DNA of 64,000 nucleotides. It comes from Scardovia wiggsiae F0424. GTDB lineage: Bacteria; Actinomycetota; Actinomycetes; Actinomycetales; Bifidobacteriaceae. The stretch lies in the NCBI RefSeq assembly GCF_000269605.1, contig NZ_AKCI01000001.1, positions 806,001 to 870,000 on the forward strand, written 5' to 3'. Below the pieces are notes generated by a model. That model was not told where the DNA came from. It was given only the letters and a program-made list of their open reading frames with translations, and did no database searches. This document shows, one piece after another, positions 45,185 through 50,254 of the stretch; the first letter of the stretch is position 1; each line of letters starts with the position of its first letter. The translations under genes were made by a program, and so were the position numbers.

Positions 45185-45221
45185 CAAAAACGCCAGCCCC
45201 AGCGTATGCCGGGCCTGGCGT
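45185..45221 (-). terminator. Rho-independent terminator of rpmE
   Basis: On the minus strand ACGCCAG (45221-45215) pairs with CTGGCGT (45196-45190), followed by TTTTTGTATT. It starts 11 bases after the rpmE stop and separates rpmE from prfA, so prfA must have its own promoter. Confidence 0.85.
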
Positions 45222-45232
45222 CAAACGTATAG

Positions 45233-45445
45233 CTACTTGTTCTTCTTGCCGTAGCGTGCCTCGAAGCGGGCAACGCGGCCGCCGGTATCAAGGATCTTCT
45301 GCTTACCGGTGTAGAAAGGATGGCAGTTAGAGCATACATCTACGGTCATATGTCCGGATGTGACAGTTGAACGGGTAACGAAGTGGTTACCGCATGAGCA
45401 GGTTACCTCGGTAGGTACGTACTCCGGATGGATATCCTTTTTCAT
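45233..45445 (-). CDS. rpmE: 50S ribosomal protein L31, zinc-binding type
   Basis: 70 residues. It keeps the four zinc cysteines Cys16, Cys18, Cys38 and Cys41 (TCSCGN and [13 protein letters not shown]), so it is the C+ form replaced by the Cys-less form under zinc limitation. The basic C-terminus [15 protein letters not shown] is typical. SD AGGAGAA. It has a near-perfect promoter and its own terminator, fitting a highly expressed ribosomal protein. Confidence 0.96.
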
Positions 45446-45517
45446 ATTTCTCCTAGGGACTTAGGGGAACCGGGTCGCCATGCCCCTTTAGCAGGCGTGA
45501 ACCGGAAACCTTGAGTG

Positions 45518-45545
45518 ATTATACGCTTTGCGGGCGACGTGTCAA
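45518..45545 (-). promoter_or_regulatory. Consensus housekeeping promoter of rpmE
   Basis: Minus strand: -35 TTGACA (45545-45540) and -10 TATAAT (45523-45518), both perfect, separated by 16 bp. The start of transcription would be near 45511, about 65 bases before the rpmE ATG. It is the best sigma-70-type promoter in the window. Confidence 0.8.
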
Positions 45546-45638
45546 GTCCTGGGAGAATTCCTCTACAAGCGGATCGGAACAAATCAGAGCGGATCCCGGC
45601 TATTTGCAGTTCATATCCGATGCTCTAGAAGCAGTACG

Positions 45639-45712
45639 TGGGGATGCAGGGGCTTGAACCCTGGACCGAACGATTATGAGTCGTTTGCTCTAACCGACTG
45701 AGCTACATCCCC
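45639..45712 (-). tRNA. tRNA-Met (anticodon CAU)
   Basis: A 74-nt cloverleaf on the minus strand. The acceptor arms GGGGATG and CATCCCC pair fully, the D-arm is GCTCAGTCGGTTAGAGC, the anticodon stem AACGA/TCGTT encloses loop CTCATAA (anticodon CAT), and the T-arm is CAGGGTTCAAGCCCCTG. CCA is not encoded. Elongator Met is more likely than the lysidine-modified Ile2 because the stem resembles elongator tRNA-Met; the initiator is excluded by the paired first acceptor position and the absence of three G-C pairs in the anticodon stem. Confidence 0.9.
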
Positions 45713-45844
45713 AAGTCGCTACGCAGTACATAGTAGCAGCCGCCGCGTAAAACCCGCCGCACTGATGTGTCTCATAATAATTCTTCTATACCAACACTAA
45801 TCGCGTATATTCCACTATTGCTCGAAGCGTAGCAATTATGTAAA

Positions 45845-47161
45845 TTAATCAGTTTTCGTTTTTCTATAACCAAATACTAGATATTCTGTCGGATTTAGTT
45901 TTCCTATTAATGATGGTGGGAGGTTTGGATGTTTCTGTATATAATCAATATTAAGAAATTCAACACTCTCTAGCTTATTTTCTATATTAATTAGTTCTTC
46001 ACGATTCTTAGTTTCTCTAATTTCTTTTGTTCCAATGAACAATTCCCCGTCGGGTTTAAGAAAAGAGACTATTTCTTTTTCTTTCAGTTCTTCCAGTACT
46101 CCACTACTAATATCCCCCTCATCAGTGGTCCAAGTGCTAAAGTCCATAATGATAGTACCATAGGAGCTTTCTTTCAAATCTTTCTTTTCGTTTTCGAAAT
46201 CCTCTTTATTCATATATTTACTACCAGTACTTACAAGATCAATATAATGCGAAGGGACGCTACCCTCTACATCCGCGGATCCAATATATAATACAGAATC
46301 CCTAGACTGTGCTATATATTTAACTAGCTTATAAAAATATTCTTTTTTACCTTTATTCTCACACCATTCCTCATTCTCACTTTCGACAGTCTTAATCTTT
46401 GGCAGCTCGCCCATTTTAGGACAGAAGGCAAAGCACCATAGTAGGATGAGCACCGATGCTGTCAATAATACGAATGATAATGTGCTCCACGGGTGTGACA
46501 ATGATTCCGTACACAATACTCCTATACTATTCGCTATTCCCAACGTGAAAAAACCAACCTTCCACCACTTACGTTGCATATCACGTAATCTAATAAGTTT
46601 GAATGAGTTCTCGAAGGAGTTTTCCTTACATCTGCCTAAAACCTCTTCATAATAATGATCGCGATAAAGGTATGGTTTTGCTATATCCGTCCTAAAACTT
46701 CTGTGCCAAAAGCACCATCGATACAAATAAACACTAATCAAAGCCATAAAAGGTACAAGTACAATCACAATAAAGAAACATAATAGACTAAATTCTATTT
46801 TTGTTTCCCTCGTAATTCTATCGTCTATGAACCAACAATAAATAATAAAACTTAGACATAATGATAATAAAATACCGGAAAAATAACAAAATATATAGCC
46901 TAGCCAGGGCTGATATCTAGCATTCTTCTTCCTTATATTCCTATAATATGAATCTTTAGAGTAACCAAGCAACTTATAAGCTAGTACTTTTTTTCTCCGT
47001 TCCTCTAGAAGTTCCTTTTCTACACCGTTAGAACTCTTAATCCTCCTTTCAATTCGCTCAAGCTCATCAAGCACATTAATATTATCGTTACTATGGAGTG
47101 GTGTAAGTTTTAAGAGTGGTGTAAGTTTTAATAAAAACTCGACTAATTTCCCATTAACCAT
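45845..47161 (-). CDS. AT-rich membrane protein with possible degenerate methyltransferase-like C-terminal domain
   Basis: 438 residues, not recognised. Layout: a charged N-terminal helix region (about 30-80), a TM pair at about 87-111 and 124-148, a cytosolic stretch (150-198) rich in Arg and Tyr, a second TM pair at about 201-219 and 228-247, then a soluble domain (263-438). In that domain VLYIGSADVEG (290-300), IDLVSTGSKYM (307-317), YGTIIMDFSTWT (334-345) and LKPDGELFIGT (368-378) fall in the order and spacing of class I SAM-methyltransferase motifs I, II, IV and V, though the glycine loop is imperfect. Base composition is far richer in AT than all neighbours, a sign of transfer. SD GGAGG. 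The N-terminus carries a six-residue repeat LLKLTP from an 18-bp duplication. Confidence 0.75.
   Translation of the reverse strand: MVNGKLVEFLLKLTPLLKLTPLHSNDNINVLDELERIERRIKSSNGVEKELLEERRKKVLAYKLLGYSKDSYYRNIRKKNARYQPWLGYIFCYFSGILLSLCLSFIIYCWFIDDRITRETKIEFSLLCFFIVIVLVPFMALISVYLYRWCFWHRSFRTDIAKPYLYRDHYYEEVLGRCKENSFENSFKLIRLRDMQRKWWKVGFFTLGIANSIGVLCTESLSHPWSTLSFVLLTASVLILLWCFAFCPKMGELPKIKTVESENEEWCENKGKKEYFYKLVKYIAQSRDSVLYIGSADVEGSVPSHYIDLVSTGSKYMNKEDFENEKKDLKESSYGTIIMDFSTWTTDEGDISSGVLEELKEKEIVSFLKPDGELFIGTKEIRETKNREELINIENKLESVEFLNIDYIQKHPNLPPSLIGKLNPTEYLVFGYRKTKTD
47096..47131. repeat. 18-bp perfect tandem duplication
   Basis: Two adjacent identical copies of GAGTGGTGTAAGTTTTAA (plus-strand reading) at 47096-47113 and 47114-47131. 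It is in frame within the first 25 codons of the AT-rich membrane gene and repeats LLKLTP. Copy-number change by slippage would add or remove six residues without breaking the frame. Confidence 0.95.
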
Positions 47162-47187
47162 ACCTTGCCGACCTCCATCTTAAAATG

Positions 47188-47228
47188 ACCCACCGCATTT
47201 CAGGACGAAAACGTAGCCTTGGGTGGGT
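47188..47228. repeat. Hairpin upstream of the AT-rich membrane gene
   Basis: ACCCACC (47188-47194) pairs perfectly with GGTGGGT (47222-47228). It lies 27 bases upstream of the start codon on the minus strand, in a 285-bp AT-rich gap with no other feature, and could be a leader hairpin or the terminator of the gene further up. Confidence 0.4.
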
Positions 47229-47446
47229 GCTGATAGCTTTATTCTAGCATAACTGCACGCCTAATTCTCCGCATGAAATACGGATTAAGTGTTAACAATA
47301 AATCGCCGGCTACTCCCTAAAAATTGGATAGTTTTATCGTGCTTTTATCACGTATCAACAGCTGTATCTTCATGATCTTTTAATATTCACACTGTAACGC
47401 CAACCCTAAAAGGACTGCTTCTATACGTGTCAGCCGGCAAACCAAC

Positions 47447-48127
47447 CTACCGGATAGACACATTCCCAACGTCGCATGTGATTTTGAAAAATGGGGTGCC
47501 TTTTTTAGTATCCGCAGCGGTCAGGGCGCTGATCTGCCGGGAGCCCAGGGACAGCTTCCCGACACGCAGTTTTGCATCATACCCGAAATCTTCCGGGATG
47601 CCTTCAAACGTCGCGTTGCCGGCAGAGCACGCCAGTTCTATGGATTCGCGGAGCACGCCGCTGCGCCACTTCACGTTCCCGGCCTCAATACTGACTTTAG
47701 CAGTCCCGATATCAACATTGTCCAAATCAATATTCGCCGCTCTGTTCCTGATAGTCAGTTTCTTTGAATTCAAGCCGTTTACAGTACAGGCAGCCCCATT
47801 CAGCTTGATTTTAGTGCTTTTGAGGACACGGTCAGGAAGGGTGATCTTCACCCGCGGTATATCAGCGTCAGTAAGGACAAAAATATTCTTGAGCAGCGGC
47901 TTCTTGCGCCTGACAGTCAGGATCGAATCAGCATATTCAATAAAGAAATCCGACTTCTTGCAATTCTCAAACTCAAGCGATTCAGCCTCACCCACATCGA
48001 CGCTGCAGCTAACACCTGCAAGGTTGAGTTTCAGCCCCACCATCGTTTTCCCGTTAAAACTGGCATGATGCTCATCCCTGCCGTCTTCGGCGCCTTTATT
48101 ATCTTTTTTGCTGTCTTTGTCGCTCAT
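47447..48127 (-). CDS. DUF4097-like beta-repeat protein
   Basis: 226 residues from ATG 48127, with AAGGA upstream. After a polar start (about 1-35) the protein consists of short repeating beta-strand units (SIEAGNVKWRSG, IRNRAANIDLDNVD, KITCDVGNVSIR), the pattern of DUF4097/adhesin-like beta-helix proteins. No signal peptide or membrane segment is visible, so it is probably cytosolic; function unknown. In other bacteria such proteins often lie near membrane-stress regulators. Nothing of that kind is adjacent. Confidence 0.65.
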   Translation of the reverse strand: MSDKDSKKDNKGAEDGRDEHHASFNGKTMVGLKLNLAGVSCSVDVGEAESLEFENCKKSDFFIEYADSILTVRRKKPLLKNIFVLTDADIPRVKITLPDRVLKSTKIKLNGAACTVNGLNSKKLTIRNRAANIDLDNVDIGTAKVSIEAGNVKWRSGVLRESIELACSAGNATFEGIPEDFGYDAKLRVGKLSLGSRQISALTAADTKKGTPFFKITCDVGNVSIR

Positions 48128-48165
48128 CGTGTTTCCTTTCACACATGTACCTCTATTATAGCCGC

Positions 48166-48426
48166 TCATCTGAACCCTGAGCCGGGTTCCATGCCAATAA
48201 GCCAGTCAAGCTGACGGGCTATAGGCAGGCTATCTATCTGCTGATTATCCGCTAAAAACAGGCTGTATTTTAATTTTATTTTCTGTATTTTTGCCGTACT
48301 ATTCATCCCCGGTGGTAAAACACGCAGATATAAAATCCGATTCGACGGTTTTTCAGCGATTCCTATTTTTATATCTGCGTGTTTTACCACCGGCATAGGG
48401 GAAAGTGGAAAACAGACGCTTTCCAT
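48166..48426 (-). CDS. Small hypothetical protein overlapping the inverted repeat
   Basis: 86 codons from ATG 48426, preceded by an excellent SD (GGAGGTGA) at proper spacing and followed 38 bases later by the DUF4097-like gene, so it could be its operon leader gene. Against it, residues 12-39 are encoded by the perfect inverted repeat at 48309-48393, giving VVKHADIK on one arm and LYLRVLPPG on the other, and no family is recognised. It may be a small gene interrupted by the repeat element. If it is not real, the 447-bp gap 48128-48574 holds only that repeat and two divergent promoters. Confidence 0.4.
   Translation of the reverse strand: MESVCFPLSPMPVVKHADIKIGIAEKPSNRILYLRVLPPGMNSTAKIQKIKLKYSLFLADNQQIDSLPIARQLDWLIGMEPGSGFR
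48309..48393. repeat. 27-bp perfect inverted repeat with 31-bp loop
   Basis: The arm 48309-48335 (starting CCGGTGGTAAAACACGCAG) is exactly complementary to 48367-48393. The 85-bp element lies between divergently transcribed genes, where a terminator is not needed. It could be a miniature inverted-repeat element, a cruciform-forming regulatory site, or encode a long RNA hairpin. No target-site duplication or second copy is visible in the window. Confidence 0.95.
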
Positions 48427-48574
48427 CGCCTCACCTCCGCAATACGCGCATCGTCACACATATCCAGTATTATTGGAGCCGTTGTAAAACCTTGGAAATA
48501 ACCGCGGAAACTAAGGGCTGAGGACCTTCAAAGCCCTGAGCGGCCAGAACTGCAGACAGAGAACAGGACATACG

Positions 48575-50254
48575 TTGGCTGAATTTATTTATCAGATGAT
48601 AAACGCCCGCAAGGCTTTCGGAGACCGCGTCATCCTTGATGACGTGACGCTGAGCTTCCTCCCCGGCGCCAAAATCGGCGTCGTCGGCCCTAACGGCATG
48701 GGCAAATCCACGCTGCTGAAGATCATGGCAGGGCTTGACACGGTATCAAACGGCGAATCAACGCTGACGCCCGGCTATACGGTAGGCATACTCCAGCAGG
48801 AACCGCCGCTTGACGAAGACAAAACAGTCGGCGAAAACATTGAAATGGCGTTCGGCGATATCCAGAAGAAAGTCCGCCGCTTCAATGAGATCGGCGAAGA
48901 AATGGCTTCTCCAGATGCTGATTTTGACGCTCTTATGGCAGAAATGGGCGAACTGCAGACTGAGATCGACGCGGCAAACGGCTGGGACCTGGAAAGCCAG
49001 CTGTCCCAGGCGATGGACGCCCTGCAGTGCCCTGATCCGGATACCCCGGTGGAAGTGCTGTCAGGAGGCGAACGCCGCCGCGTAGCACTGTGCAAACTCC
49101 TGCTTGAAGCCCCTGACCTTCTGCTGCTTGACGAGCCGACCAACCACCTGGATGCGGAATCGATCCTGTGGCTGGAGCAGTTCCTCCACACGTATAAGGG
49201 TGCCGTGCTCGCAGTGACCCATGACCGGTACTTCCTTGACAACGTTGCGGAATGGATCTGCGAAGTTGACCGCGGGCATCTGTATCCGTACAAGGGGAAC
49301 TACACCACGTATCTGGAGACCAAGGCCAAGCGCCTTGAAGTCCAGGGGCAGAAAGATGCCAAACTCGCCAGGCGGCTCAACAGCGAGCTCGAGTGGGTGC
49401 GGAGTTCGCCGAAAGCGCGCCAGGCAAAGAACAAGGCACGCCTCGAACGGTATGAACAAATGGAAGCTGAGGCCAGGAACTCCAGGAAGCTTGATTTCTC
49501 AGAGATCCAGATCCCGCCGGGGCCGCGGATGGGTTCCAAAGTCCTTGAGGCTTCACATATCCATAAGGCTTTCGGCGACCGGGTGCTTATTGATGATCTG
49601 AGCTTCACCCTGCCGCGCAACGGCATCGTCGGCGTCATAGGCCCTAACGGTGTCGGTAAGTCTACACTGTTCAAGACTATTGTAGGCCTGGAACCGCTGA
49701 CAGGCGGGAACCTGGAAATTGGCGATACCGTAAAGGTCTCTTATGTTGATCAGAACCGCGAAGGGCTGGACCCCAATAAGAATTTATGGGAAGCAGTTTC
49801 CGACGGTAATGATTTCATTGAAGTGGGCGGCATTGAAGTACCCACCCGCGCATATGTTGCCAGTTTCGGCTTCAAAGGGTCAGACCAGCAGAAGCCGACG
49901 GGCGTGCTTTCCGGGGGCGAGCGCAACCGCCTGAACCTGGCGCTTACCTTGAAACAGGGCGGGAACCTTCTGCTTCTTGATGAGCCGACGAACGATCTGG
50001 ATGTGGAAACACTGGAAAGTCTGGAAAATGCGCTTATCGCATTCCCCGGATGCGCTGTAGTCGTTTCCCATGACCGCTGGTTCCTTGACCGTATTGCGAC
50101 CCACATCCTCGCATGGGAGGGCGATGACGAAAACCCTGCCAACTGGTACTGGTTTGAAGGCAACTTCCAGTCATACCAGGAGAACAAAGTACAGCGCCTG
50201 GGCGAAGAGGCCTCCAAGCCGCACCGCCTGCACCGCAAACTTACCCGTGAATAG
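48575..50254 (+). CDS. ettA: Energy-dependent translational throttle protein EttA (ABC-F)
   Basis: 559 residues from TTG 48575, with AGGA at suitable spacing. EttA binds the ribosomal E site and gates elongation according to ATP/ADP. Two ABC domains with Walker A GPNGMGKST (38-46) and GPNGVGKST, signatures LSGGERRRVAL and LSGGERNRLNL, and Walker B LLLLDEPTNHLD and LLLLDEPTNDLD. The linker between domains carries the charged P-site-tRNA-interaction motif region (SPKARQAKNKARLERYEQM). No membrane domain. Length and start MAEFIYQM match EttA rather than resistance-type ABC-F proteins. Confidence 0.95.
   Translation: MAEFIYQMINARKAFGDRVILDDVTLSFLPGAKIGVVGPNGMGKSTLLKIMAGLDTVSNGESTLTPGYTVGILQQEPPLDEDKTVGENIEMAFGDIQKKVRRFNEIGEEMASPDADFDALMAEMGELQTEIDAANGWDLESQLSQAMDALQCPDPDTPVEVLSGGERRRVALCKLLLEAPDLLLLDEPTNHLDAESILWLEQFLHTYKGAVLAVTHDRYFLDNVAEWICEVDRGHLYPYKGNYTTYLETKAKRLEVQGQKDAKLARRLNSELEWVRSSPKARQAKNKARLERYEQMEAEARNSRKLDFSEIQIPPGPRMGSKVLEASHIHKAFGDRVLIDDLSFTLPRNGIVGVIGPNGVGKSTLFKTIVGLEPLTGGNLEIGDTVKVSYVDQNREGLDPNKNLWEAVSDGNDFIEVGGIEVPTRAYVASFGFKGSDQQKPTGVLSGGERNRLNLALTLKQGGNLLLLDEPTNDLDVETLESLENALIAFPGCAVVVSHDRWFLDRIATHILAWEGDDENPANWYWFEGNFQSYQENKVQRLGEEASKPHRLHRKLTRE

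Follow-up and report, generated by a model that had tools for sequence, protein, structure and literature searches.

Between a tRNA-Met gene and ettA in the genome of Scardovia wiggsiae F0424 (1.55 Mb, one contig), we found a real, intact gene of 438 codons that is far poorer in GC than its neighbours, and which is probably a lineage-specific ORFan acquired from an AT-rich source, with transfer as the probable cause of its composition. As to its function, we propose, with a probability of roughly 0.35, that it encodes a single-gene accessory membrane protein of the conflict or exclusion type, made of two membrane hairpins and a soluble domain, a role that we infer only from the build of the protein and from its genomic setting. 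In such a protein, the cytosolic domain would sense or bind something, and the membrane part would anchor the response or execute it. All positions given here are those of the window, that is, the whole stretch of 64,000 nucleotides that was analysed, and the features of the locus are as follows:

45638..45712, minus strand: tRNA-Met (CAT), between the ORFan and rpmE
45845..47161, minus strand: AT-rich ORFan gene, 438 amino acids (open frame, composition and simulation)
47447..48169, minus strand: DUF4097-like neighbour, 240 amino acids (22.5 bits, cut-off 22.9)
48575..50254, plus strand: ettA (ABC-F), closing the variable interval on the right

The minus-strand frame runs unbroken from ATG to stop, whereas among 1000 sequences simulated with its first-order composition the longest stop-free run in any of the six frames was 187 codons, and the ATG is closely preceded by GGAGG as a ribosome-binding site. 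The sequence-only reading had described a single AT-rich gene next to a tRNA gene in a genome of moderate GC, and the composition bears this out: the ORFan has a GC content of 34.2% (40, 32, and 31% by codon position, GC3 about 30%) against a mean of 53.8% (sd 4.2) and a GC3 of 58.6% for 46 window genes, listed by hand with the ORFan among them. It is the GC minimum of this list, in which the second-lowest gene stands at 46.6%, and among the eight genes of lowest GC its codon-adaptation index is 0.53 vs. at least 0.739 in the seven others. A perfect 18-nt tandem duplication (47096-47131) lies at the 5' end of the gene and repeats LKLTPL in the protein.

The homologue searches returned essentially the gene itself. 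Only the own genome was found among 59 relatives, and again among 396 genomes of the order at E ≤ 0.001, while in 189 genomes of the family, at E ≤ 0.1, the own gene was accompanied by six weak matches (E 0.0015-0.08), none of them convincing among the 188 other genomes; the best of these (L002), the sole one of the six that was inspected, is a low-complexity stretch with an internal stop. In 396 genomes of the phylum, the whole protein and its C-terminal 191 residues each gave four matches including the own one, and three of 40 genomes of one class were matched, none convincingly; these six draws, of 40-396 genomes from one phylum, overlap. Three candidates were, like L002, dismissed as chance: L009, which aligns at 23-24% identity with roughly 100 residues of a protein that looks PrmC-like by eye (L023 is the same place), L010, with 50% over 32 residues, and L011, with 25% over 90 residues. 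A further match, L024, contains two internal stops. In plasmids and phages, nothing matched the whole protein at E ≤ 1, the N-terminal part had no match in plasmids, and the C-terminal part gave at E ≤ 10 a single plasmid match at E 9 and none in phages. PHROGs gave no convincing homologue, and pattern scans of viral contigs and genome contigs gave none, these scans being seeded by exact short peptides or by a single exact motif, which limits them to close relatives. Beyond the own phylum, coverage came only from these pattern scans and from the collections of plasmids and phages, which a distant homologue, for example in Bacillota, would escape; the collections may also omit records of the S. 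wiggsiae F0424 genome or of very near ones. Literature listings, as far as they extend, contain nothing on the ORFan. Within the collections searched, then, the statement that the protein belongs to no known family holds. Given the lack of homologues, selection on the protein has no support.

The gene order at the locus is prfA, rpmE (both identified by eye), tRNA-Met, ORFan, DUF4097-like gene, and ettA. The distance from tRNA-Met to ettA is 2862 nt here vs. 519 nt and 311 nt in two congeners (G001 and G002, respectively), and these short intervals mean that neither congener has the ORFan or the DUF4097-like gene here; genome searches showed the ORFan to be absent elsewhere in both genomes as well. 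Since both sister species lack the gene, we consider it lineage-specific and probably acquired, and its description as transferred-looking is sustained by its low GC, by this absence, and by searches of the 188 other family genomes, which gave no convincing match. The DUF4097-like gene has matches in 14 of the 189 family genomes (own included, E ≤ 1e-5), the best other one being 30% identical; a distant relative lies elsewhere in G002, and none was found in G001 at E ≤ 1e-5.

The surrounding prfA-to-ettA interval was compared in six relatives with divergent prfA and ettA on one contig within 25 kb, leaving out G041, in which the two genes are 22 kb apart and not divergent, and others in which they are farther apart or split across contigs. 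The interval measures about 1.0 kb in G001, where one small frame looks HTH-like by eye; 16.4 kb in G002, which carries a type I-C CRISPR-Cas system; 14.1 kb in G016, which carries, among other genes, a type IIG restriction enzyme and its specificity subunit; 3.7 kb in G003; 4.0 kb in G012; and 23 kb in G014, where sugar-metabolism genes were seen by eye. Transporter or binding-protein genes were recognised by eye in G003, G012, and G016. PADLOC confirmed the defence genes in two of the six relatives (G002 and G016; six picked proteins), a point for the conflict role; against it, in both they lie beyond the tRNA, towards rpmE, and not on the side of the ORFan. The CRISPR-Cas I-C system of G002 (L026, C1:1333000-1349700) lies between rpmE and tRNA-Met with a long repeat array seen by eye, and the type IIG restriction enzyme-methyltransferase and specificity subunit of G016 are found at L027 8039-11129. 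In ten proteins picked from G012 and G014, the other two relatives scanned, PADLOC found nothing at E ≤ 1e-5. Near the ORFan, eight of ten window genes were without a PADLOC match, and the other two, a GlgB-like amylase and PrmC (mad2 model), are matches of a broad housekeeping type. We therefore do not regard the interval as a defence island as such, its cargo being mixed, and the ordinary genes that it also carries (sugar, transport, HTH-like) count against a conflict role of the ORFan. The interval is a usable place to search: depending on the relative, the six carry CRISPR-Cas there, or restriction-modification, metabolic or transport genes, or just one small gene. Integration at the 3' end of the tRNA was also considered and rejected, because this end (45638) points away from the ORFan; no repeat of it (repeats of at least 12 nt) occurs in 45200-48800, and the one match to the tRNA, of 14 nt (86%) at 48171-48184, corresponds to a stretch inside it.

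From its N-terminus, the predicted protein is built as follows:

46910..47161, minus strand: N-terminal stretch, residues 1-84, in part predicted to be helical (AlphaFold helices 30-42 and 47-64, low to fair confidence)
46709..46909, minus strand: first membrane hairpin, about residues 85-151 (hydropathy; block pLDDT 73-85 over residues 91-140)
46409..46564, minus strand: second membrane hairpin, about residues 200-251, with a marginal first helix (hydropathy)
45848..46399, minus strand: C-terminal soluble domain, residues 255-438, with a methyltransferase-like motif order (motif positions)

Hydropathy exceeds 1.6 at about residues 85-114, 118-151, and 223-251, which gives three clear membrane segments, whereas a fourth (about residues 200-218) is marginal, with a peak of only 1.25. 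Thus, of the four transmembrane helices that had been claimed, two hairpins followed by a soluble domain stand as a prediction in which three helices are clear and one is only marginal. The net charge is +6 ahead of TM1 and 0 in the TM1-TM2 loop (three K/R); the TM2-TM3 loop has 11 K/R and a net charge of +4, and the TM3-TM4 loop has no K/R and a net charge of -1. By the positive-inside rule, the N-terminus and the middle loop are placed in the cytosol, and a cytosolic C-terminal domain follows only if the marginal helix is real. The stretch past TM4, with five K/R yet a net charge of -2, is disfavoured as cytosolic by the same rule. Both ends of the protein are probably cytosolic, and the C-terminal domain is probably of the alpha/beta type. 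AlphaFold, run without relatives on the whole protein, reached a mean pLDDT of 48.5 overall; it gave helices for the N-terminal part and stayed below 50 for residues 264-438.

The weak family matches of the membrane part fall on the first hairpin: PycTM (PADLOC PDLC02365) at E 0.0059, a 2TM effector (PDLC00681) at E 0.1, and DUF2207_C at E 0.0067. The reversed N-terminus matched another PycTM model at E 0.012 and AgrC at E 0.0028 (16.9 bits), and these similar controls indicate that composition accounts for matches of about this strength; no defence model of PADLOC matched the ORFan itself beyond its reversed control. The Pycsar PycTM and CBASS 2TM effectors join a hairpin to a cytosolic part, as in the ORFan, but membership in either was rejected, with the reversed control being comparable and no nucleotide cyclase being found among the ten nearby window genes (PADLOC, E ≤ 1e-5). 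The MAG0130/MAG3770 family of membrane proteins (NCBIfam NF045993) resembles the ORFan by a weak match over this same hairpin, at 21.7 bits and E 0.00015 with a cut-off of 85 bits, somewhat above the reversed control. SLATT (SLATT_1, PF18181) gave no match at the ORFan and a sub-threshold one elsewhere in the genome only.

The sequence-only reading had seen a possible degenerate methyltransferase in the C-terminal domain, and we regard it as possible, although on balance doubtful, that this domain has the class I Rossmann fold in a contracted form, making the protein a membrane-tethered (pseudo-)methyltransferase with an altered SAM loop and maybe another ligand or partner. Such an identity would concern the domain only, and it is compatible with the conflict-type role. 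The proposal is a hypothesis drawn from motif order: VLYIG starts at residue 290, IDLVS at 307, IIMDF at 337, LKPDG at 368, FLNID at 402, and YLVFG at 427, so that the order and spacing of the six favour it. From IIMDF to LKPDG there are 31 residues, and the spacing from strand 4 onward looks normal for class I enzymes, with LKPDG at the usual distance. Strands 1 and 4 are only 47 residues apart, a short spacing that resembles that of a contracted Methyltransf_11-like group. The LKPDG-type motif alone appeared in 189 of 200000 shuffles and the full ordered set in none of 200000, a count that is not a probability, given that the patterns were written after viewing the sequence. The motifs that had been quoted are present (290, 307, about 334, and 368), including, as one short motif, LKPDG at the place of the LKPGG type before strand 5. 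The glycine motif I (of the D/E-h-G-x-G-x-G type) does not occur at 290-300, where VLYIGSADVEG has Y in place of the acid, and A and V in place of the second and third glycines. Compared with the class I SAM-dependent methyltransferases, and the contracted group in particular, the ORFan thus has in common the order of hydrophobic strands, LKPDG for KPGG, and the short strand 1-4 distance, but it differs in its altered loop (IGSADVEG), the lack of an LEH motif, and the membrane hairpins in front.

In contrast, no curated family supports a methyltransferase. Pfam, NCBIfam, and PADLOC gave no family at E ≤ 10 for the C-terminal 184 residues, a listing limited by the HMMER filters, which discard most matches above about E 0.1, whereas the same Pfam search assigned PrmC, a window gene taken as control, to several families, MTS and Methyltransf_12, _25, and _31 among them. 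These curated models are a better test than the home-made profile that we also built, for which a consensus of the contracted group retrieved 75 plasmid records; 10 of the 60 listed were fetched, picked for query coverage and spread, four of these stretches carrying a glycosyltransferase annotation and two lacking an annotated feature. On the full 10-instance profile, the C-terminal domain scored 1.3 bits (rank 16 of 763 scored among 1002 sequences), and on the core profile 1.2 bits, matched or exceeded by 68 of 3000 shuffles and by 9 of 173 windows of other genes, with -2.1 and -1.2 bits for the reversed domain on the two profiles. The domain has no significant score against the contracted group, in a test of low power, since PrmC as a true methyltransferase reached only 2.8 and 2.1 bits (2 of 9 windows). 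A PDB sequence search with the domain matched solely an unrelated carboxypeptidase inhibitor (E 1.2).

The structure prediction and fold search that had been suggested for this domain were run. AlphaFold modelled the domain alone with a mean pLDDT of 37.4 (176 of 184 residues below 50), and Foldseek found no match to this low-confidence model in the PDB at E ≤ 0.001; its top match was the EsaD/EsaG complex (E 0.16), and none of the best 50 of 140 matches was named as a methyltransferase. In both low-confidence models, of the domain and of the whole protein, VSFL-KPDG-ELFIGT forms two strands and not a helix-turn-strand, which also speaks against the methyltransferase. Neither a non-Rossmann fold nor membership in a well-described family, the two outcomes that the sequence-only reading had named as counting against it, was found. 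A bolder version, which we consider a long shot, would make the ORFan the first known member of a family of membrane-tethered pseudo-methyltransferases, in which a contracted Rossmann domain has lost SAM binding and senses another ligand, signalling to the hairpins in conflict with phages or plasmids, as a single gene in variable slots. Acquired ORFans are common, and by itself this one is ordinary; a ligand-sensing pseudo-enzyme wired to membrane helices, if true, would be a new build among single-gene membrane effectors.

The main alternative for the function of the gene is that it has none for the host: it may be a neutral passenger left over from a past mobile element or phage and intact only by its recency. 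This we consider rather unlikely, even though the lack of homologues, the AT-richness, the absence of any recognised partner gene, and the presence in one of three congeners all agree with it, given that the 438 codons are free of lesions and preceded by a ribosome-binding site, and that the neighbouring genes examined include nothing recognisable as an integrase or as the remains of an element. The unbroken frame with its ribosome-binding site is, in turn, a point for the accessory membrane protein as an acquired gene. We consider it very improbable that the gene is native to the lineage, an AT-rich membrane gene that evolves fast and that originated or diverged there without transfer. For this it can be said that no donor was identified and that hydrophobic residues favour U-rich codons; against it, the soluble C-terminal part (32.8% GC) is about as AT-rich as the membrane part (35.3%) and GC3 is 30% vs. 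59%, so that hydrophobicity fails as the cause of the composition.

Two further elements were noted. The one at 48309-48393 is a palindrome, about 81-85 nt long, whose arms of 26-27 nt are highly conserved and whose loop varies; it occurs nearly full-length at 21 distinct places of the 1.55 Mb genome (L043-L050, L064-L074, L076, and L077), besides one 24-nt partial match, with one copy in G001 (L061) and none in G002. No target-site duplication was obvious by eye at these copies, and some changes in one arm are mirrored on the opposite arm; the element may be either MITE-like or a protein-binding palindrome. Upstream of rpmE, an L31-Actinobacteria ribosomal protein leader was found at 45466-45512 on the minus strand (Rfam RF03158, 36 bits, cut-off 35).
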